From the NCBI RefSeq assembly GCF_002860325.1, contig NZ_PKOJ01000003.1, forward strand, positions 310,001-374,000: a stretch of DNA of 64,000 nucleotides, in the 5' to 3' direction. The notes below the pieces were generated by a model. That model was not told the origin of the DNA. It ran no database searches and saw nothing but the letters and a program-made list of their open reading frames with translations. Below, one piece after another: positions 45,662 to 54,599 of the stretch. This DNA is from Neptunicoccus cionae (GTDB lineage Bacteria; Pseudomonadota; Alphaproteobacteria; Rhodobacterales; Rhodobacteraceae). Made by a program: the position numbers and the translations under genes. Every line of letters begins with the position of its first letter. The first letter of the stretch is position 1.

Positions 45662-46735
45662 ATGGTACATCTCTGGGTCCGCGCAGAACAGCGCCCCGCC
45701 GAACAGCGCGTTGGCATCACACCGGAAGGCGTAAGCGCCCTACTGGCCGCAGGCTTCAAAGTCACGGTCGAGGACTCCGCCGCGCGCGCCATTCCGATCA
45801 GCGCATACCAAACCACAGGCTGTGATATTGCAGCGGCTGGTGACTGGCAGGAAGCACCCGACGATGTAATCGTTTTCGGACTGAAGGAACTGGATCCGAA
45901 CGGCCCGAACCTGCGCCACCGGCATATCATGTTCGGCCACGCCTATAAGGGGCAGGCGGACGGGCCGGACCTGCTGCGCCGGTTCAAGAACGGCGGCGGG
46001 GCGCTTTACGATCTGGAATACCTGACCGAACCGTCGGGGCGCCGCGTTGCGGCTTTCGGGTATTGGGCCGGTTTTGCAGGCGCTGCGGTCGGGATGAAAG
46101 TCTGGGCGGCGCAGCAGGCTGGCCCTATTCCCGGTCCGGAACGTATCGGGGTCTATCCGGGGCGCGATGCCCTGGTGTCAGAATTACAAAGCGAACTGGA
46201 TCATGCCGTGTCCGGCGGGGCCAGTCAGCCCGATGTGATCGTTATCGGCGCGCTCGGACGGGTGGGCAGCGGCGCATGTGATCTGGCGGCAGCCCTTGGC
46301 CTGACGGTTACGAAATGGGATATGGCGGAAACGGCACATGGTGGCCCTTTCCCCGAGATCCTGAACCATACGCTGTTTGTGAATTGCATACTTGCCAGTC
46401 CGGGTGTTCCGGTATTCGTTCCTGAAACTACCCCTGACGCGCCTCGCAAGCTGACCGTGATTGCCGATGTCAGTTGCGATCCGAATTCGCCATACAACCC
46501 GATCCCGATCTACGAAGAATCCTCCACCTTTGACGCGCCGGTCACACGGGTGACTCAAGGCCCGCCGCCACTGGATGTGACCGCAATCGACAACCTGCCT
46601 TCCATGCTTCCAGTAGAAAGCTCGCAAGATTACGCTGCCCAGCTCTTACCGTCGCTTTTGACGCTGAACAGAATGGACAGTGGCGTCTGGGCCCGCGCAC
46701 GGCAGCTGTTCGACACCCACGTCGCACAGGTCTAG
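45662..46735 (+). CDS. Saccharopine dehydrogenase (L-lysine-forming type, LYS1-like)
   Basis: A 357-residue NAD-dependent dehydrogenase of the alanine dehydrogenase/LYS1 fold, related to the fungal enzyme that interconverts saccharopine and lysine plus 2-oxoglutarate. The N-terminus WVRAEQRPAEQRVGITPEGVSALLAAGF has the conserved Arg and Glu, GHAYKGQ carries the catalytic Lys-His region, and VIVIGALGRVGSGACDLA is the Rossmann loop. AGGAG lies 11 bases before the ATG at 45662. It converges with the SDR gene, stops overlapping by four bases. Whether it works in lysine breakdown is inferred. Confidence 0.85.
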   Translation: MVHLWVRAEQRPAEQRVGITPEGVSALLAAGFKVTVEDSAARAIPISAYQTTGCDIAAAGDWQEAPDDVIVFGLKELDPNGPNLRHRHIMFGHAYKGQADGPDLLRRFKNGGGALYDLEYLTEPSGRRVAAFGYWAGFAGAAVGMKVWAAQQAGPIPGPERIGVYPGRDALVSELQSELDHAVSGGASQPDVIVIGALGRVGSGACDLAAALGLTVTKWDMAETAHGGPFPEILNHTLFVNCILASPGVPVFVPETTPDAPRKLTVIADVSCDPNSPYNPIPIYEESSTFDAPVTRVTQGPPPLDVTAIDNLPSMLPVESSQDYAAQLLPSLLTLNRMDSGVWARARQLFDTHVAQV

Positions 46736-47463
46736 CCCTTGCCGAACAGCCGGTAATATAGCGGCGCAGGCAGAAAGTTTGCGCCGCGAAACAACCATGA
46801 AAACACCCTTGGGAAATTGGTCTGGAACCGGCGCGATTGCATGGCGGCAACCACGTGGTCAGCGGCCTGTTCCGGCCCCATTACAAAGGGCATCTCAAAG
46901 TCGTTCTTGTCGGTCAGACGGGTCTTGATAAAGCCCGGATTAACCAGTTGCACCTTAACATTCGTTCTGACGGTCTCGGCGTGCAGGTTCTCTGCCAGAT
47001 GCATTACGGCGGCCTTGCTGGCCCCGTAGCCGATGGCACCGGGAAGGCCGCGAAATCCTGACAGACTGCCGATCAGCACCACATGGCCGCGGTCCTGTGC
47101 AATCATCTGTGGCACGACAGCCCCGATCACCCGCGCAGCCCCCGTGAAGTTAATGTCACACATGGCCTCAACCGCTTCACCGTCCCAGTCTGCCGCGCCC
47201 ATCGGCCAGTACACGCCGGCCAGAAACACCAACCCGTCTATCGGGCCAATTTCACTCGCGACACGACGCACCTCTTCCAGATTGCGCACATCGAGCGGAT
47301 GAACCGAGGAGGCGGACGGCAGGCTGTCAGACAATTCATTCAGCCGTTCCTTGCTACGGGCGCTCAATACCAGCTCCACGCCCAGTGCTGAAAGTTTTTC
47401 TGCCACAGCGCGGCCCAATCCTTCGGAGGCACCAACCAGCCAGTATTTCTGCCCCGCCTGCAT
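46732..47463 (-). CDS. Short-chain dehydrogenase/reductase
   Basis: A 243-residue classical SDR. The cofactor loop is VGASEGLGRAVAEKL, and the active site is Ser in IGSLSGFRG, Tyr in GYGASKAAV and Lys four residues later. Its ATG shares one base with the DUF3833 stop (TGATG). It is the last gene of the six-gene RpoE-linked operon. In conserved versions of this cluster the SDR accompanies FAD oxidoreductase and DUF1365 genes tied to membrane-lipid modification. Substrate unknown. Confidence 0.88.
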   Translation of the reverse strand: MQAGQKYWLVGASEGLGRAVAEKLSALGVELVLSARSKERLNELSDSLPSASSVHPLDVRNLEEVRRVASEIGPIDGLVFLAGVYWPMGAADWDGEAVEAMCDINFTGAARVIGAVVPQMIAQDRGHVVLIGSLSGFRGLPGAIGYGASKAAVMHLAENLHAETVRTNVKVQLVNPGFIKTRLTDKNDFEMPFVMGPEQAADHVVAAMQSRRFQTNFPRVFSWLFRGANFLPAPLYYRLFGKG

Positions 47464-48023
47464 CAGACAGGCTCCGGTCGGATGGTTGCAACCAGTTCTG
47501 CAACCTTCACCCCGAACTTGCGCATCTGGCTGCGGTTCACCAGTGATCCGTTGTCCAGAAGATAGATCCAATCGGTGACATCAAGCTCGTGGCCACCGGC
47601 GCTTTCAGTCAATTTGATACGGTATTGCAACCGAATAGCCGATCCCATCTGCACCCCCTCCCCCGTGCCAATGACATCGGGCGCTGTTGCCTTGAAAGTG
47701 CCGTCATTTGCGCTGGTTAAATGCCACTCGCGCCGCTGCTCAGTACCGCTGTCATAGCGAAAATCCTCAACCAGCGTGCCGGTGTTCCCCTGCCAGCTGC
47801 CATGCATCCGTGCAGTAAAACGGGAGGACACGCGGCCGAAGGGGCCATATAGCACGCCATCGCACGACATAGGGCCGTTCAGGTGACGGCGGATGTCAAA
47901 CACGGGTCCGTCTTTCGCATAATCCTGCGGGCGTTGCGCTTGAAAACCGGTGAACCGTTCCTTCAGCCAGCACAAAAGTAAAATCAGGCCAGCACCCAGT
48001 ATGAACAGGATCAGATCAGGCAT
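47463..48023 (-). CDS. DUF3833 family protein
   Basis: A 186-residue protein with one N-terminal membrane helix (LILFILGAGLILLLCWL). The rest is a lipocalin-like beta-rich domain: HLNGPMSCDGVLYGPFGRVSSRF, SGTEQRREWHLT and VTDWIYLLDNGSLVNRSQMRKFGVKVAEL (about residues 149-177). It overlaps the MFS stop by eight bases. DUF3833 proteins are usually encoded in this same oxidoreductase-DUF1365 cluster; the function is unknown but lipid handling at the membrane is plausible. Confidence 0.85.
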   Translation of the reverse strand: MPDLILFILGAGLILLLCWLKERFTGFQAQRPQDYAKDGPVFDIRRHLNGPMSCDGVLYGPFGRVSSRFTARMHGSWQGNTGTLVEDFRYDSGTEQRREWHLTSANDGTFKATAPDVIGTGEGVQMGSAIRLQYRIKLTESAGGHELDVTDWIYLLDNGSLVNRSQMRKFGVKVAELVATIRPEPV

Positions 48024-49263
48024 GACAACTCTCCTCTATCGGGGTCCAGTACAGGACGGCCAGAGCAATGGATTTCAATACAGACGGGACTGCCGCATAG
48101 GTCAGGGTCAACATCCAGAGCACCTGCGGCGGATTCGGCTGGACAGTGGAAAAACCGGAGTGATCCAGCAACGGAAGTACAGTTGCAGCAGCAATCGCAA
48201 GGGTCAGCTTGGCACAGAAATTCCACAGACCAAAGGCTTGGCCTCCGGCGCCGTGAACCCGCTCCACCCGTGCGGAAAACAGAGCCGGTAGCAGAGTCAT
48301 ATCCGCGCCCAGCGCCGCGCCGGAGGCCAGACACACCAAAGCAAACGGCCAGACATCCCCTTGCCCCAGTGTGATTGCAAAGCTGAAGGCAACGATCGAC
48401 AGCCCCATGCCGGCAAGCAGCGTCCAGCGCACCCCGCGCCGTGCTGCAATCCGCGCCCAGAAGGGAACGGAAACGGCCGCAGCGACAAAAAATACAAGAA
48501 GAAGCGGTCCGGCCGCGGTTTCATGGCCAAGGCGGTATTCCACAAAGAACAGGAACAGACTGGCGCTAACCGCTGCGGGAGCAGCATTCAACAGGCCCAC
48601 CAGCAGCAACCGGCGTAGGACGGGATCTGCCAGCAAGGCAGCAATACTGCCGCGTTCCGGCCGCCGTGCCTGGACCTGCCATTCGCTGCGCATCAAGGCA
48701 GCACCCGCCGCCGCCGCGATTGAAAAAACAAACGCAAACAAGGCCAACGGGGCGCTAAAACCCGCGTAGAGGAATAGGGTCGGCAGGATGGCTGCAAGAC
48801 AAATCCCCGCCAGACTGCCGCTTTCACGCCAGCCCGCCAGTCGCAAATGCCCTTCCGGCCCGAGCGTATTACCTTTTGTAATTCCGCGCGCGTAAAACAG
48901 AACCGACAGGGCGCTGAAAGCAGTGAAAAGCACCGCCAGACACATGACGAACCAGAGCAGCGGGTCAATCGGTGCGGTCACAGCGAACAAGCCGACCATC
49001 GCCAACGCCAGCAACGCAGTCATTCCTCCCGCAAACAGGCCACGCCAAGCCCCCAGATGGTCAACCACCCATCCCAAAACGGGATCCTGTGCGAAATCCA
49101 GCACCCGCAGCCCCAAAAGCGCAACACCGATCGCTGACAGGCTAAGGTCATAGCGGTCCACATAGAATTTCGGCGCATGGATATAAAGCGGCAGTCCCGC
49201 CGCAGCGAGAACGCTTGCAAAGGCAGTATAGCGGTGCAGACCAAGACGGATGCCACGCTCCAT
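48016..49263 (-). CDS. MFS transporter (MelB/GPH-like)
   Basis: A 415-residue 12-helix transporter of the MFS_2 type. The first segment YTAFASVLAAAGLPLYIHAPKFY and the loop LRVLDFAQDPVLGWVVDHLGAWRG contain the acidic residues of the cation-binding site of MelB relatives. Within a lipid-modification cluster it may move a lipid or lipid precursor (as the lysophosphatidylcholine carrier MFSD2A does) rather than a sugar. It is coupled at both ends to its neighbours. Confidence 0.85.
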   Translation of the reverse strand: MERGIRLGLHRYTAFASVLAAAGLPLYIHAPKFYVDRYDLSLSAIGVALLGLRVLDFAQDPVLGWVVDHLGAWRGLFAGGMTALLALAMVGLFAVTAPIDPLLWFVMCLAVLFTAFSALSVLFYARGITKGNTLGPEGHLRLAGWRESGSLAGICLAAILPTLFLYAGFSAPLALFAFVFSIAAAAGAALMRSEWQVQARRPERGSIAALLADPVLRRLLLVGLLNAAPAAVSASLFLFFVEYRLGHETAAGPLLLVFFVAAAVSVPFWARIAARRGVRWTLLAGMGLSIVAFSFAITLGQGDVWPFALVCLASGAALGADMTLLPALFSARVERVHGAGGQAFGLWNFCAKLTLAIAAATVLPLLDHSGFSTVQPNPPQVLWMLTLTYAAVPSVLKSIALAVLYWTPIEESCHA

Positions 49264-49812
49264 TCAGCTTTGCCCCTTCAATCTGGAGGCCGCCCGCGCA
49301 TCCCGCGAGGTCGGCGCAAGCCAGATACCAAAAAACCGGTCCCGCAGGCGCGGATAGGCCAGCGTGCAGGTCTTGCGCCCGTTGACGAACAGGCTGGCGC
49401 GATCCGGACCATGAGAGACCCCCGTAACCCGCACGCCCGTGTCCACATCCACAAGGCAGTTGCGGAGCCGCTGTTCAAATGCGCCGTGATCAGAAACGCG
49501 GCCCCCTTCTACCCTGACGATTTCCTTGATCGTCGTTCGTGCCAGCAGTTCGGCGCTGAACGGATAGGCATAGCGCAGGCTCAGTGCGAAAGGCTCCCGC
49601 TGGTCGAATGTCCCTGCAGATGCCGTCCAAAGTTCTGCATCATAGAGTTTCCTCCCCCATAGGCGCGCGCTGGCCATTCCTTTCAGCGACGCAGCACCTA
49701 GCGATCGGGCGACCTCCCCCGGTGCAGATTGCGCCACCGCCTGCCCCGTGTTCAGCGAACCAAGAACAACGGCAATCAGAAAGGATGCAACAGCAATGCT
49801 TGGAAAGCTCAT
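49264..49812 (-). CDS. Chalcone isomerase-like protein, exported
   Basis: A 182-residue protein with a signal peptide (SIAVASFLIAVVLGSLNTGQAVAQ). The mature part fits the bacterial chalcone-isomerase-like family: GMASARLWGRKLYDAELWT, then ALSLRYAYPFSAELLARTTIKEI. In plants the same fold includes fatty-acid-binding proteins, so periplasmic fatty-acid binding is an attractive inferred role. ATG 49812 overlaps the DUF1365 stop by four bases (ATGA). Confidence 0.82.
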   Translation of the reverse strand: MSFPSIAVASFLIAVVLGSLNTGQAVAQSAPGEVARSLGAASLKGMASARLWGRKLYDAELWTASAGTFDQREPFALSLRYAYPFSAELLARTTIKEIVRVEGGRVSDHGAFEQRLRNCLVDVDTGVRVTGVSHGPDRASLFVNGRKTCTLAYPRLRDRFFGIWLAPTSRDARAASRLKGQS

Positions 49813-50573
49813 GACGAAACCTCCTGCTCCGGCGGTTCCGGCCTGTTGCGAAAACCCGCCCCCTTCCACCAGAGCCGCAGTGCCTGCCAATATATCAGGC
49901 CTAGCACCCGTAAGGAGCCAAAGGGACGCGCCACCGCCATGCCAAGGATAGAGCGGTTGGAAAGAGGCCGCCGCTTGCCGTGGAAAGTGGCGATCACCCC
50001 GCTTTCCTTGCTGCGGAAATCAATCACGATACCGATATGCCGGTCTGTCACATCAAAGCGGAAACTGTATTCACCGCTAACCGGCTGGAATGGCGACACA
50101 TGAAATATCTTGCGGGCTGTCAGCCGGTCCGTGGGCAGGATCGGCGCCAGATCACTGTGATGGCACAGATAGGAATGACGGTCCCCGTAGGTGTTGTTTA
50201 CCTCGGCAATTACAACACGCAGGGTATCTTGGGCATCAAACACCAGCCAGAAACTGACCGGATTGAAGACATGACCGAAAATACGCGGCTGGGCCAGCAA
50301 CAGGATTTTCCCGTTACACCGCGCGTCCATGCCCTGTGCGACAAGTATCCCGCGCACCCATTCAACACCCTGCCCCGCACCGCGCGCGCCGCCGTGATCT
50401 ATATCGTGGATGGCCGTCAGGTTGGCGCGGTTGCGCGAAAACAGAAACGGTTTGGGGGCATCCCCGGACAGATCCGACAACACATAATCCACACGGTAGC
50501 GGAAGGCGTTTTTCACCGCCCCGTGCCGCCCGTGATAGGTGGTTGCGCAGATATGTTCGGGGGTTACGCCCAT
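49809..50573 (-). CDS. DUF1365 family protein
   Basis: A 254-residue protein. The conserved core is FGHVFNPVSFWLVFD (residues about 99-113), then VIAEVNNTYGDRHSY and KIFHVSPFQPVSGEYSF. DUF1365 proteins accompany cyclopropane fatty-acid synthase-like methyltransferases and FAD oxidoreductases; from memory, related genes in Rhodobacter sphaeroides are RpoE targets that affect unsaturated fatty-acid chemistry. It overlaps the FAD oxidoreductase stop by ten bases. Confidence 0.88.
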   Translation of the reverse strand: MGVTPEHICATTYHGRHGAVKNAFRYRVDYVLSDLSGDAPKPFLFSRNRANLTAIHDIDHGGARGAGQGVEWVRGILVAQGMDARCNGKILLLAQPRIFGHVFNPVSFWLVFDAQDTLRVVIAEVNNTYGDRHSYLCHHSDLAPILPTDRLTARKIFHVSPFQPVSGEYSFRFDVTDRHIGIVIDFRSKESGVIATFHGKRRPLSNRSILGMAVARPFGSLRVLGLIYWQALRLWWKGAGFRNRPEPPEQEVSS

Positions 50574-51850
50574 TGCGGGATCAGTTTCATATGATCGGCT
50601 ACATCCACTGCGCTGGAATACCCGTCTTCATGAAAGCCGTTGCGCAAATAGGCACCGCAGAACCAAGTATTGTTCAATCCTTGCAACGCCTTAATCCTGC
50701 TTTGCGCCGCCAGCGCCGCGCGGTCGAACACCGGATGCATGAAGCTGGTCTCCTCATAGATCAATTCTTCACGGATCGTGCTGGTCGGGTTCAGAGAACT
50801 GAGCAGCAGATCGTCATGGGGAATGGATTGCAGGGTGTTCATCCAGTAGGTGATACCCACGGGATCAGAGGTGTTCTGCCGCGCTGTCGTATAGGTCCAA
50901 CTGGCCCAGCAGGATTTGCGCTTGGGCATGATTGACGGATCCGCGTGCAGCACCGCACGGTTGCGCTGGTAGCCGATCGCGCCCAGTGTAGAGGTTTCTT
51001 CCGGCGTGGGATCGGCGAGCATCGCCAGCGCCTGATCCGAATGGCAGGCAAAAACCACACGGTCGAATTGCTCCCATGTGCCACCTTCAAGACGAACCTC
51101 TGCGCCGGCACTATTGCGCCGCACTGCCACAACATTGGCACCGGTGCGAATTTCGCAGCCATGCCTGCGCATCGCCAGTTCAAGCCTGCGAACGTATTCA
51201 ACAGAGCCGCCGTTCACTGTATACCACTGATGCTGGCCATAGATATTCAGCAGGTTGTGGTTCTGGAAAAATCGCGTCAGCGCCTGTGCCGGAAAGGATA
51301 ACATCTGTTCCAGCGGGGTTGACCAAATCGCGCCCGAAAACGGTAGCAGATAATACTTCTGGAACCACTCGCCCATCCGCAACCGGCGCATCAGCTCTCC
51401 CAGTGTCAGATCGGGATCTGCGGCCATATCAACGGCCTTGGCATTGAACCTCAGGATATCCACCAGCATTCCCAGAAACAGGGGATTCACGATATTCCGC
51501 TTTTGCGCAAACAGAGCAGCAAGATCGTTCAGGGCGTATTCGATCCGACCATCATCCGCAGACACGCCAAAGCTCATATCGCTTTTGATAACGGGTACAT
51601 CCAATTCGTCGAACAGGCCGGTCAACCGCGGATAATTCGCATAATTAAACACGATAAATCCTGTATCTACTGGCTGGTCCCCGTTCTTACCCGCTGTCAC
51701 TGTGCGGGCATGCCCGCCAAGCCGCTTTTCCGTTTCCATCAAGGTCACGTTATTGGTCTTGGACAACAGGTGCGCCGCACCCATTCCGGAAATACCCGCA
51801 CCTATAACAGCGATCTTGGCCGGAGCAGCGGGGGCAAATTCAAATGGCAT
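50564..51850 (-). CDS. FAD-dependent amine-oxidase-like oxidoreductase
   Basis: A 428-residue flavoprotein. The N-terminal dinucleotide loop is IAVIGAGISGMGAAHLL, with ETEKRLGGHARTV as the second FAD contact. The middle resembles phytoene-desaturase/amine-oxidase proteins (LPFSGAIWSTPLEQML), and the C-terminus closes the FAD site (TWFCGAYLRNGFHEDG). It is the first gene of the six-gene operon. AAGGAA lies 6 bases before the ATG, and an RpoE-type promoter lies 27-56 bases upstream. A role in desaturating or oxidising membrane acyl chains is inferred from the cluster. Confidence 0.9.
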   Translation of the reverse strand: MPFEFAPAAPAKIAVIGAGISGMGAAHLLSKTNNVTLMETEKRLGGHARTVTAGKNGDQPVDTGFIVFNYANYPRLTGLFDELDVPVIKSDMSFGVSADDGRIEYALNDLAALFAQKRNIVNPLFLGMLVDILRFNAKAVDMAADPDLTLGELMRRLRMGEWFQKYYLLPFSGAIWSTPLEQMLSFPAQALTRFFQNHNLLNIYGQHQWYTVNGGSVEYVRRLELAMRRHGCEIRTGANVVAVRRNSAGAEVRLEGGTWEQFDRVVFACHSDQALAMLADPTPEETSTLGAIGYQRNRAVLHADPSIMPKRKSCWASWTYTTARQNTSDPVGITYWMNTLQSIPHDDLLLSSLNPTSTIREELIYEETSFMHPVFDRAALAAQSRIKALQGLNNTWFCGAYLRNGFHEDGYSSAVDVADHMKLIPQWA

Positions 51851-51876: not shown

Positions 51877-51906
51877 TCCATACGCCACGCCAATCCGATT
51901 GGATCA
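51877..51906 (-). promoter_or_regulatory. RpoE-type promoter of the FAD oxidoreductase operon
   Basis: On the minus strand, -35 TGATCC (51906-51901), an 18-base spacer and -10 TATGGA (51882-51877). The form matches the TGATC(C)-N18-TA consensus known for Rhodobacter RpoE. It implies a leader of about 20 bases. Confidence 0.8.
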
Positions 51907-51939: not shown

Positions 51940-51969
51940 TGATCCAACTGTATTTGGCGCGCGTATAGA
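51940..51969 (+). promoter_or_regulatory. RpoE-type promoter of rpoE-chrR
   Basis: -35 TGATCC (51940-51945), an 18-base spacer and -10 TATAGA (51964-51969), the same architecture as the divergent promoter. It indicates autoregulation and a leader of about 95 bases. Confidence 0.8.
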
Positions 51970-52069: not shown

Positions 52070-52639
52070 ATGGGCCCTACTGAGCAGCCGCGCAGTCAAG
52101 GTAAAGATTGGAATGCGCAGATATTGCGCGTTCGCAATCACCGTGACGAAGCCGCTTTTGCTGCCCTGTTCAGCCATTTCGCGCCCCGCATCAAAGGGTT
52201 CCTGATCAAATCGGGGGCCAGTGGTACGATGGCCGAAGAATGTGCACAGGAGACCATGATCACCCTGTGGCACAAAGCCCATTTGTTTGATCCCTCCCGC
52301 GCGTCGGCGGCCACGTGGATTTTTACAATTGCGCGGAACAAGAAAATCGACGCCTTCCGCCGGGCGGCACGGCCCGAACCCGAAGACCTTCCCTGGGGAC
52401 CGGAACCCGAACCCGAAGCAGCGGATGCGCTGGCGCTCAGTCAGGAAACCGAACATCTGGCAACAGCACTAAATGCCTTGCCCGAAAAACAAAGAGATAT
52501 TGTGAAACGTGCCTATTACGGCGATTTGACCCATTCGGAACTGGCAGAAGAAACCGGCCTTCCGCTTGGCACGATCAAGTCCCGCATTAGGCTGGCGCTG
52601 GATCGCCTGCGCCAGACACTGAACGAGCCTGTGAAATGA
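52070..52639 (+). CDS. rpoE: ECF RNA polymerase sigma factor RpoE (ECF11-like)
   Basis: A 189-residue ECF sigma. Region 2 spans about residues 25-90 (FAALFSHFAPRIKGFL, EECAQETMITLWHKA, ATWIFTIARNKKIDAFRR) and region 4 about 125-185 (ALNALPEKQRDIVKRAYYGDLTHSELAEETGLPLGTIKSRIRLALDRLR). The frame stays open far upstream, but the ATG at 52070 follows an AAGG site and lies downstream of the RpoE promoter; the first upstream ATG (51974) is at the expected transcription start. It is coupled to chrR by a four-base overlap. In relatives it is the singlet-oxygen sigma factor. Confidence 0.94.
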   Translation: MGPTEQPRSQGKDWNAQILRVRNHRDEAAFAALFSHFAPRIKGFLIKSGASGTMAEECAQETMITLWHKAHLFDPSRASAATWIFTIARNKKIDAFRRAARPEPEDLPWGPEPEPEAADALALSQETEHLATALNALPEKQRDIVKRAYYGDLTHSELAEETGLPLGTIKSRIRLALDRLRQTLNEPVK

Positions 52640-53286
52640 CTGTAAAACACCTTTTAAACGAACAACTGCTTATGGGATATGCCGCCGGCATCCTCCCCGA
52701 AGCGTTTGACCTTGTTGTCGCTTCCCATCTGAGCCTATCAGATGAGAGCCGCGCTATGCTGGGCGGTTACGAGGCCGTAGGCGGCGTGGTGATGGAAGAA
52801 ACAGAATCTGTCGAGATGGGCGCTCATGCGCTGGAGTCCGTAATGGCGCGGATCAAGTCTGGCAAAGAAATCACCGAGAAACCCGCTGTAAGAGCCACCA
52901 GACCCGGTGTCTTGCCCGAACCCTTGCAGGAATATGTGGGCGGCGACGTAGATAAAATCAAATGGCGCCCGCTGGGTGGCGGCGTAAAGCAGGCGATCCT
53001 GCCAACTTCTGGCAAGGCGCAGGCCCGCCTTCTGCTGATCCCTGCGGGCGTGGCCGTGCCCGATCACGGGCATCGCGGCACCGAACTGACGCTGGTGCTG
53101 CAAGGGTCTTTTTCTGACGAAGTGGATCGTTTTTCCCGTGGCGACATTGAAATCGCGGATGAGGATCTGAACCACCAGCCCGTTGCCGGCCCTGAAGCGG
53201 ATTGCATCTGCCTTGCTGCCACTGACGCGCCTTTGCGGTTTAACAGCCTGATCCCGCGCCTGCTCCAGCCGATCTTTCGTATTTAA
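52636..53286 (+). CDS. chrR: ChrR-family anti-sigma factor lacking the zinc-binding CxxC
   Basis: A 216-residue two-domain anti-sigma factor. The N-terminal anti-sigma domain (residues about 1-85) aligns with R. sphaeroides ChrR but reads SHLSLSDESRAM: His31 is kept while Cys35 and Cys38 are both Ser (codons TCA and AGC). The C-terminal cupin domain (about 105-200) keeps its metal ligands His144, His146 and Glu150 (DHGHRGTE) and His180 (DLNHQP), and the cysteines Cys190 and Cys192 (DCICLAAT). It should hold RpoE inactive until singlet oxygen appears, but perhaps without the structural zinc. It overlaps rpoE, and its stop overlaps the convergent DUF3422 gene. Confidence 0.93.
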   Translation: MTVKHLLNEQLLMGYAAGILPEAFDLVVASHLSLSDESRAMLGGYEAVGGVVMEETESVEMGAHALESVMARIKSGKEITEKPAVRATRPGVLPEPLQEYVGGDVDKIKWRPLGGGVKQAILPTSGKAQARLLLIPAGVAVPDHGHRGTELTLVLQGSFSDEVDRFSRGDIEIADEDLNHQPVAGPEADCICLAATDAPLRFNSLIPRLLQPIFRI

Positions 53287-54599
53287 GGACCGGTCGGCGC
53301 GCTCGTCGCACGCTTTTCGGCCTGTTTGCGAATTCTGCGCACGCCCAGCCACACCAATAGCACCACCGGCAGCACCAGTCCGGCGCCGAACCATTTTTGC
53401 GAAATCCCAAGCTGGTCCGCAATCGGCGCCAGCAGTTTGGCCAGCAGGTTCACCCCGTAGTAGCTGATCGCCACCACCGACAGGCCCTCAACCGTTTCCT
53501 GCAACCGCAGTTGCAGGGCCGCGCGGGTGTCCATCTGTTTTAGGATCTGCCGGTTGCGCTCATCCGCATCAACGCTGACCCTTGTGGCCAGCAGGTCCGA
53601 TGCCCGCGCTGCGCGGCCCGAAATATCCGCCAGCCTGCGGGATGCCGAGCGGCAGGTGCGCATGGCCGGTTCAAACCGGCGCATCATGAATTCGGAAAAC
53701 AACTGATAGCCCGCCAGCCGCTCTTCGCGCAGGACATTGACCCGTTCATGCACCAAGGCCGAATAGGCTTCGGCTGCGGTAAAGCGAAAGGCCGTATCGG
53801 CAGAAAAATTTTCCACCCGACCGGAGATATGCAGCAGGCGATCCAGCTCATCCTTGGAATTTTCATGGGCATCGGTCATTTCCCGCACCACCTGCGCCAG
53901 ATCGCGGTCCAGATCGGACAGGCGCGAAAACACATCCCGCGCAATCGGCAGGGTCAACATGGCCATCGTCTTGTAGGTCTCGATCTCGATCAACCGCTGG
54001 ACAATCCGTCCCATACGGTTCGCGCCGGTCTCGCCCACCTGAAACACCGCAAAGCGGATGTGTTCATGGGCGTCGAGCCGGAAATCCCCCACAATCGCTG
54101 CATCCCGTTCCAGCACGAAAGACGCCGCGACGGCCTCGGTGTGGAGCCATTCGCTGCCCACTTCGGAAACCCGCGCGATCACCGCCTCTTGCGACACGGC
54201 ATGTTCAAGACGCACAAGGATGGAGGACAGCAACCGTCCCGGCGCATCGGCCAGCCAGCTATCCGGGAAATAATCGAACAACCCGCCGTCAAAAGGCACT
54301 TCGGACACGCCATCGGCAAACAGGGTAAAGGTGCAGAATTCCGAATGCCGTTCCCACTTCAGATGCACCATCCCGAGATCGGCACTATGGTGGGCCGCAT
54401 CCGGTGCCGGATGGGCCGCGCCGTAACGGTCAAGCAAGGCCAGCAGATGATCCCGATAGGCGTCTGATCCGTTTGTGTCCCGCTCTATCGCGATAGAGGC
54501 CGCGCGGCTCGGGGCGCGCAACACGGGAAACGGGCGGGCGTGTAATTCATTGCTCAGCGCAACGCGGTCGGGGTGGTGGGCTATGGCAGAAAGCGGCAT
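53283..54599 (-). CDS. DUF3422 family membrane protein
   Basis: A 438-residue protein. The N-terminus HPDRVALSNELHARPFPVLRAPSRA is the family signature. A long helical middle (about residues 215-340) precedes two C-terminal membrane segments (SVVAISYYGVNLLAKLLAPIAD and FGAGLVLPVVLLVWLGV), a layout that recalls CorA-like channels. The function is unknown. It lies back to back with chrR but on the opposite strand and shows no RpoE-type promoter. Confidence 0.85.
   Translation of the reverse strand: MPLSAIAHHPDRVALSNELHARPFPVLRAPSRAASIAIERDTNGSDAYRDHLLALLDRYGAAHPAPDAAHHSADLGMVHLKWERHSEFCTFTLFADGVSEVPFDGGLFDYFPDSWLADAPGRLLSSILVRLEHAVSQEAVIARVSEVGSEWLHTEAVAASFVLERDAAIVGDFRLDAHEHIRFAVFQVGETGANRMGRIVQRLIEIETYKTMAMLTLPIARDVFSRLSDLDRDLAQVVREMTDAHENSKDELDRLLHISGRVENFSADTAFRFTAAEAYSALVHERVNVLREERLAGYQLFSEFMMRRFEPAMRTCRSASRRLADISGRAARASDLLATRVSVDADERNRQILKQMDTRAALQLRLQETVEGLSVVAISYYGVNLLAKLLAPIADQLGISQKWFGAGLVLPVVLLVWLGVRRIRKQAEKRATSAPTGP

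Follow-up and report, generated by a model that had tools for sequence, protein, structure and literature searches.

The window, i.e., the whole stretch of 64,000 nucleotides of Neptunicoccus cionae DNA that was analysed, carries an rpoE-chrR gene pair and a divergent operon resembling RSP1091-1087 of R. sphaeroides. The chrR gene comes directly after the ECF sigma factor gene, with its start lying inside the rpoE stop. At its other end, chrR is convergent with a DUF3422 gene, the two sharing 4 bp. The order of the divergent operon is that expected of RSP1091-1087, with one additional Pfam-less ORF inside. For the gene assignments we took RSP_1090 to be a DUF1365 protein, the MFS gene to be the RSP_1089 equivalent by gene order, and the DUF3833 gene to be the RSP_1088 equivalent (Table 1). 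RSP_1088 is given as a lipoprotein and RSP_1087 as a short-chain dehydrogenase in PMC5507510.

Table 1. Features of the rpoE-chrR region (positions within the window)
Feature	Positions	Strand	Basis
rpoE, ECF sigma factor, 189 aa, 4-bp overlap with chrR	52070..52639	+	Sigma70_r2, Sigma70_r4
chrR, ChrR-family anti-sigma factor, 216 aa, L/H/S/S at ASD ligand positions 6/31/35/38	52636..53286	+	
DUF3422 gene	53283..54599	-	
Putative sigma-E-type promoter TGATCC-N16-CGTA, upstream of rpoE-chrR	51940..51965	+	Motif search
Putative sigma-E-type promoter TGATCC-N16-CGTA, divergent, 5' of the ufaD-like operon	51881..51906	-	Motif search
ufaD (RSP_1091)-like FAD amine oxidoreductase	50564..51850	-	PF01593 and position; name from PMC7380195
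ufaO (RSP_1090)-like, DUF1365	49809..50573	-	PF07103, 234.9 bits; name from PMC7380195
Pfam-less ORF separating the ufaO-like gene from the MFS gene	49264..49890	-	
RSP_1089-like MFS transporter	48016..49263	-	PF13347
RSP_1088-like DUF3833 protein	47463..48023	-	PF12915
RSP_1087-like short-chain dehydrogenase	46732..47571	-	PF00106

The chrR product scored 220.4 bits against TIGR02451 (anti_sig_ChrR), above the curated cut-off of 124.5, and 156.1 bits against the narrower NCBIfam ChrR equivalog NF051881, below its cut-off of 300. Residues 1-205 matched R. sphaeroides ChrR (PDB 2z2s; E=5.5e-72), and a Cupin_7 domain (PF12973, 53.6 bits) with H/H/E/H ligands was present in the C-terminal part. 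The anti-sigma domain (ASD) aligned to that of 2z2s without gaps, the four-helix fold being compared by sequence only. In the genome harboring the window, the protein search found one ChrR and the TIGR02451 match count was two.

R. sphaeroides ChrR binds two zinc ions, one in the ASD through H6, H31, C35 and C38 and one in the cupin through H141, H143, E147 and H177 (PMC6852236). Translation of the window ChrR and its alignment to 2z2s revealed L6, H31, S35 (TCA) and S38 (AGC), meaning that three of the four ASD zinc ligands are gone. The sequence-only reading had rightly described this gene as a ChrR with serines at positions 35 and 38, with H31 kept and, in the window's own numbering, with the cupin ligands H144, H146, E150 and H180 as well as C190/C192 intact. 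Its account of the ligand loss held for both cysteines and had overlooked the replacement of His6 by Leu. C190 and C192, which match C187/C189 of R. sphaeroides ChrR (PMC6852236), are the only cysteines of the whole protein, and the ASD contains none. Positions 5-6 read H5-L6 where R. sphaeroides has His-His, of which the second His alone binds zinc (PMC6432622). The window ChrR lacks the ZAS motif H/C-X24/25-H-X3-C-X2-C as given in PMC6432622.

Among the nearest named relatives (best 80 of 550 confirmed candidates), the ChrR of the MAG P03SST1bin.12 (96% protein identity) and that of the isolate Neptunicoccus sediminis CY02 (90% identity) both have L/H/S/S. An erroneous read or assembly of codons 35 and 38, which the sequence-only reading had named as a finding that would refute it, is itself refuted by this shared state and keeps a negligible probability: the identical four residues occur in other assemblies, an isolate included, with graded variants around them.

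Within the genus (33 genomes), a strong ChrR match was found in 23 genomes and a weak one in a 24th. The 23 strong ChrRs comprised 15 lacking zinc ligands in the ASD (hereafter zinc-less), 7 with all four (HHCC) and 1 fragment without an ASD. Besides HHCC, the states at positions 6/31/35/38 were LHSS, VHSS, VHSA, IHSS, THCS, HQSA (including HTCC2255, L080), HHSA and HHSS. A Rhodobacteraceae family sample (330 of 394 genomes matched) provided 30 loci that were read and then 60 further listed places, ranked by an alignment that itself contains zinc-less rows. The class sample consisted of 30 loci plus 100 chosen regions from 199 matching genomes (135 above the cut-off), with some second copies left out and L291, L292 and L293 lying below the cut-off. 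The genus, family, class and named sets together gave 253 distinct rows, and 248 rows with a full ASD once the partial L018 and the weak matches L160-L163, limited to the cupin, had been dropped before counting. All samples were ranked, non-random and alphaproteobacterial, and their row counts are not counts of independent events. Both cysteines were kept in 203 of the 248 rows and not in the other 45.

The 60 further Rhodobacteraceae loci, two of which were already in the set, comprised 54 HHCC and 6 other ChrRs, which rules out a loss confined to one genus. With these the set reached 306 distinct ChrRs, in which a gap at position 6 in three rows was scored as lost and L027 was assigned HHCC by hand from its sequence. 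All four ASD ligands were present in 255, at least two were lacking in 51, and exactly one was lacking in none. Two ligands were gone in 12 of the zinc-less rows, three in 23 and four in 16, the double losses being limited to positions 6+38 (5 rows) and 35+38 (7 rows). The ligand most often missing from the 51 rows was C38 (50), followed by C35 (46), H6 (40, three of them gaps) and H31 (21). This all-or-none distribution agrees with a site that is of no use unless complete. Zinc-less forms occurred in 30 of the 131 class-sample rows and in 20 of its 66 family codes. The cupin HHEH set was intact in 245 of the 248 full-length rows (42/45 zinc-less, 203/203 zinc-type) and in 60/60 of the later Rhodobacteraceae rows, the three exceptions all being zinc-less genus members. 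Across the ChrR family, loss of the zinc ligands is a recurrent event and not a local oddity. Plasmid records were also searched, with all matches falling below 60% identity.

We have traced ASD ligand loss on ChrR trees, a check of the kind that the sequence-only reading had proposed, and found it to be recurrent. A 174-row Rhodobacteraceae ChrR tree (two outgroup rows; quick search, simple model) required four changes at the fewest, the 15 zinc-less genus rows forming one clade (SH-aLRT 92) adjoining two HHCC members and three further changes falling elsewhere in the family. A class-wide FastTree tree of 248 rows required at the fewest 15 changes. A third tree, with 41 rows, was built from the RpoE+ChrR concatenation with the ligand columns removed. 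It placed 17 genus rows on one side of a branch (100/99); the best tree split the zinc-less genus rows, and uniting all 15 of them was not rejected (p-AU 0.37). The 41-row and 174-row trees were constructed without L020, L021, L023, L024 and L026, which are HHCC genus rows with long branches. S35 was encoded by TCN codons in the window's and related lineages, whereas the HTCC2255 lineage used AGY; C35 was still present in L007, together with S38. Since these two serine codon families are each one step from Cys and two from each other, the simplest account is at least two losses of C35 within the genus.

Selective constraint was estimated as dN/dS in a trio formed by the window, the MAG P03SST1bin.12 and N. 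sediminis CY02. The whole-gene chrR values were 0.039, 0.066 and 0.060, compared with 0.035, 0.094 and 0.068 in three HHCC control pairs. For ASD residues 1-60 they were 0.040, 0.008 and 0.054 in the trio and 0.028, 0.078 and 0.050 in the zinc-binding control pairs. We have also applied a filter that retains positions where one residue occurs in at least 11 of the 15 zinc-less genus members and in at most 12% of 95 zinc-binding Rhodobacteraceae. Among ChrR residues 1-99 it retained three positions, 8, 35 and 95; position 38 missed it because it is divided between Ser and Ala. The low dN/dS of the ASD and the few other ASD positions that differ consistently supported the earlier view of a targeted change rather than decay, and suggest that the window chrR is under constraint and unlikely to be decaying. 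Phototrophy was considered as a driver of the ligand loss; reaction-centre genes were found in 3 of the 33 genus genomes and were absent from that of the window.

The motif TGATCC-N16-CGTA was published for Shewanella rpoE2 and likened there to that of R. sphaeroides (PMC4336711). In the genome of the window it also occurs just 5' of a photolyase gene (PF00875/PF03441), which is followed directly by a CMAS (ufaM-like) gene. By regulon content, the motif at rpoE-chrR, at the RSP1091-1087-like operon and at the photolyase gene with CMAS corresponds to the ECF11 RpoE-ChrR core regulon. The exact-spacing motif had 26 matches in the genome, of which the 3 inspected lie at core-regulon genes, versus 1 for the reversed pattern, and a looser first pattern had given 30 matches, all overlapping stop-to-stop frames of at least 100 codons. 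Taken alone, the motif would be weak evidence; the weight of the promoters comes from position and conservation. TGATCY-N16-CGTA was found 121-133 bp 5' of rpoE (start as chosen here) in 15/15 zinc-less genus loci, and in all 15 rpoE and chrR were overlapping or at most 8 bp apart.

Of the 45 zinc-less rows, 35 had S, D, N or T at position 35, versus a frequency of 0.19 for these residues in class-level zinc-less proteins, with S, D or N being the commonest; 38 had A, S, N or G at position 38, versus 0.28. S/D/N/T was absent from position 35 in 10/45 rows, and across the 20 zinc-less family codes of the class sample it was found there in any member in 15 and in all members in 11. Asp, Asn and Ala are more than one base change from Cys, and thus mutational access alone does not account for them. 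These preferences point to a putative helix cap at position 35 and to ordinary packing at positions 38 and 6. The first Cys of the RsiW CxxC sits in the loop that leads into helix 3, and the second belongs to the helix itself (PMC5358783). Concerning the metal itself, a 46-residue ASD model peptide was mostly random coil without zinc, which folded it into three helices, and it bound zinc at least three orders of magnitude more weakly when its first His was replaced (PMC6432622).

We consider that the window most probably encodes a working ChrR with a zinc-free ASD that still sequesters RpoE and releases it under stress via the cupin domain, with a probability of about two in three. In the ancestor, zinc on H6, H31, C35 and C38 would have stapled three short helices into a clamp on RpoE. 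In the window ChrR this staple would be gone, with position 6 hydrophobic, the Ser at position 35 (often Asp or Asn in other lineages) able to cap helix 3 at its start, and position 38 small (Ser here, often Ala elsewhere). Ordinary packing would then keep the helix bundle together, as it does in RseA, with RpoE still sequestered. As the ASD has no thiolates, release of a bound RpoE would have to use the cupin domain, whose H/H/E/H site is nearly invariant, plus ChrR turnover, rather than ASD thiolate oxidation. The furan-fatty-acid genes may take part in release together with that turnover, as proposed for R. sphaeroides, where the singlet-oxygen response needs the ChrR cupin domain (PMC6852236).

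Sigma binding without zinc appears to be the best-supported reading when weighed against a ChrR that no longer holds RpoE, the sigma factor being constitutive or otherwise controlled and ChrR being kept for its cupin. Zinc binding is stated as required for inhibition in R. sphaeroides (PMC6852236, crediting Newman 2001), and H6 and both cysteines are gone here, as a loss of RpoE binding would predict. This stated requirement and the largely unfolded state of the zinc-free model peptide speak against a zinc-free ASD that works. Such a loss is nevertheless unlikely, given that the constraint on the ASD equals that of zinc-binding pairs, that few other ASD positions have changed and that the tight rpoE-chrR arrangement is kept in all 15 zinc-less genus loci. 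A metal could also be held in the ASD by other residues, e.g., by H5 and H31, both present in the window ChrR, with nearby acidic residues or Ser. This is very improbable, with H31 being lost in 21/51 zinc-less rows, H5 occurring in only 20/45, and the HTCC2255 lineage having H6 but Q31, S35 and A38.

The remaining alternative is that zinc-less chrR genes are decaying toward loss. Ten of the 33 genus genomes gave no strong ChrR match, some of these assemblies being incomplete, and the cupin ligands are damaged too in three genus members, L016 (HLEH), L017 (HRES) and L025 (FQQE). Pairs among L015, L017 and L025 had dN/dS of 0.17-0.20, indicative of weaker constraint. Decay is therefore possible in that sub-lineage. 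As an account of the zinc-less genes in general it is quite improbable, however, since dN/dS is low in the window trio, the promoter is kept in 15/15 zinc-less genus loci, and all cupin ligands are kept in the window's six-member group and in four HTCC2255-like members.

The window locus shares with the ECF11 RpoE-ChrR system of R. sphaeroides (2z2s, 2q1z) near full-length ChrR homology, the cupin ligands, the rpoE-chrR order, the divergent RSP1091-1087-like operon and the promoter motif, and differs from it in the ASD ligands. E. coli RseA is membrane-bound and, to our knowledge, carries no cupin, whereas the loss in the window ChrR arose within a soluble zinc family. RseA is a non-zinc class I ASD that established the zinc-free ASD fold, which is common to RseA without zinc and to ChrR with it (PMC6852236). 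The structure of the SigW-RsiW complex of B. subtilis is likewise kept independently of zinc (PMC5358783), but RsiW retains its cysteines and is membrane-bound. AS19-1 and AS27 each combine zinc and non-zinc ASDs within one anti-sigma group (PMC7406223). Such mixing within groups and an ASD fold without zinc are thus already known. The accessible text of PMC7406223 does not contain the term "ECF11" and does not describe a zinc-less ChrR. The possibility raised by the sequence-only reading that SxxS is a well-described zinc-free ChrR subgroup found no counterpart in the literature searched, in which subscription journals were mostly outside the scope. We regard as evenly poised the broader proposal that these proteins form a convergent zinc-free ChrR class, in which the ASD metal would have been given up repeatedly and as a unit, with the cupin site staying nearly invariant.

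If this is true, the ASD zinc of ChrR would be an optional structural staple, and the sensing of singlet oxygen or peroxide would be carried out by the cupin alone. According to PMC6852236, what the ASD zinc contributes to the ChrR response is unknown; one proposal has the ASD thiolates reacting with singlet oxygen (PMC6432622), and another places sensing in the cupin (PMC4960319). Natural ChrRs without ASD thiolates, with the cupin and the core regulon intact, would provide ready-made tests of this dispute and turn the open sensing question into a comparison between existing proteins.

On the sigma factor side, six RpoE positions passed the same simple filter. Four of them were common to both zinc-binding genus members and two, 131 and 144, were not. 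Position 144 is Ile in 15/15 zinc-less genus members, whereas 90/95 other Rhodobacteraceae and the two zinc-binding genus rows have Leu there; it could be a candidate compensatory change. As to other members of the genus, L016, L017 and L025 have several cysteines in or near the ASD, e.g., at positions 43 and 56, and the ChrR open frame of L016 is shorter (202 aa). In the genomes of L020, L021, L023, L024 and L026, both the HHCC ChrR and its RpoE are distant and sit on long branches, and they are possibly a replacement of the native pair.
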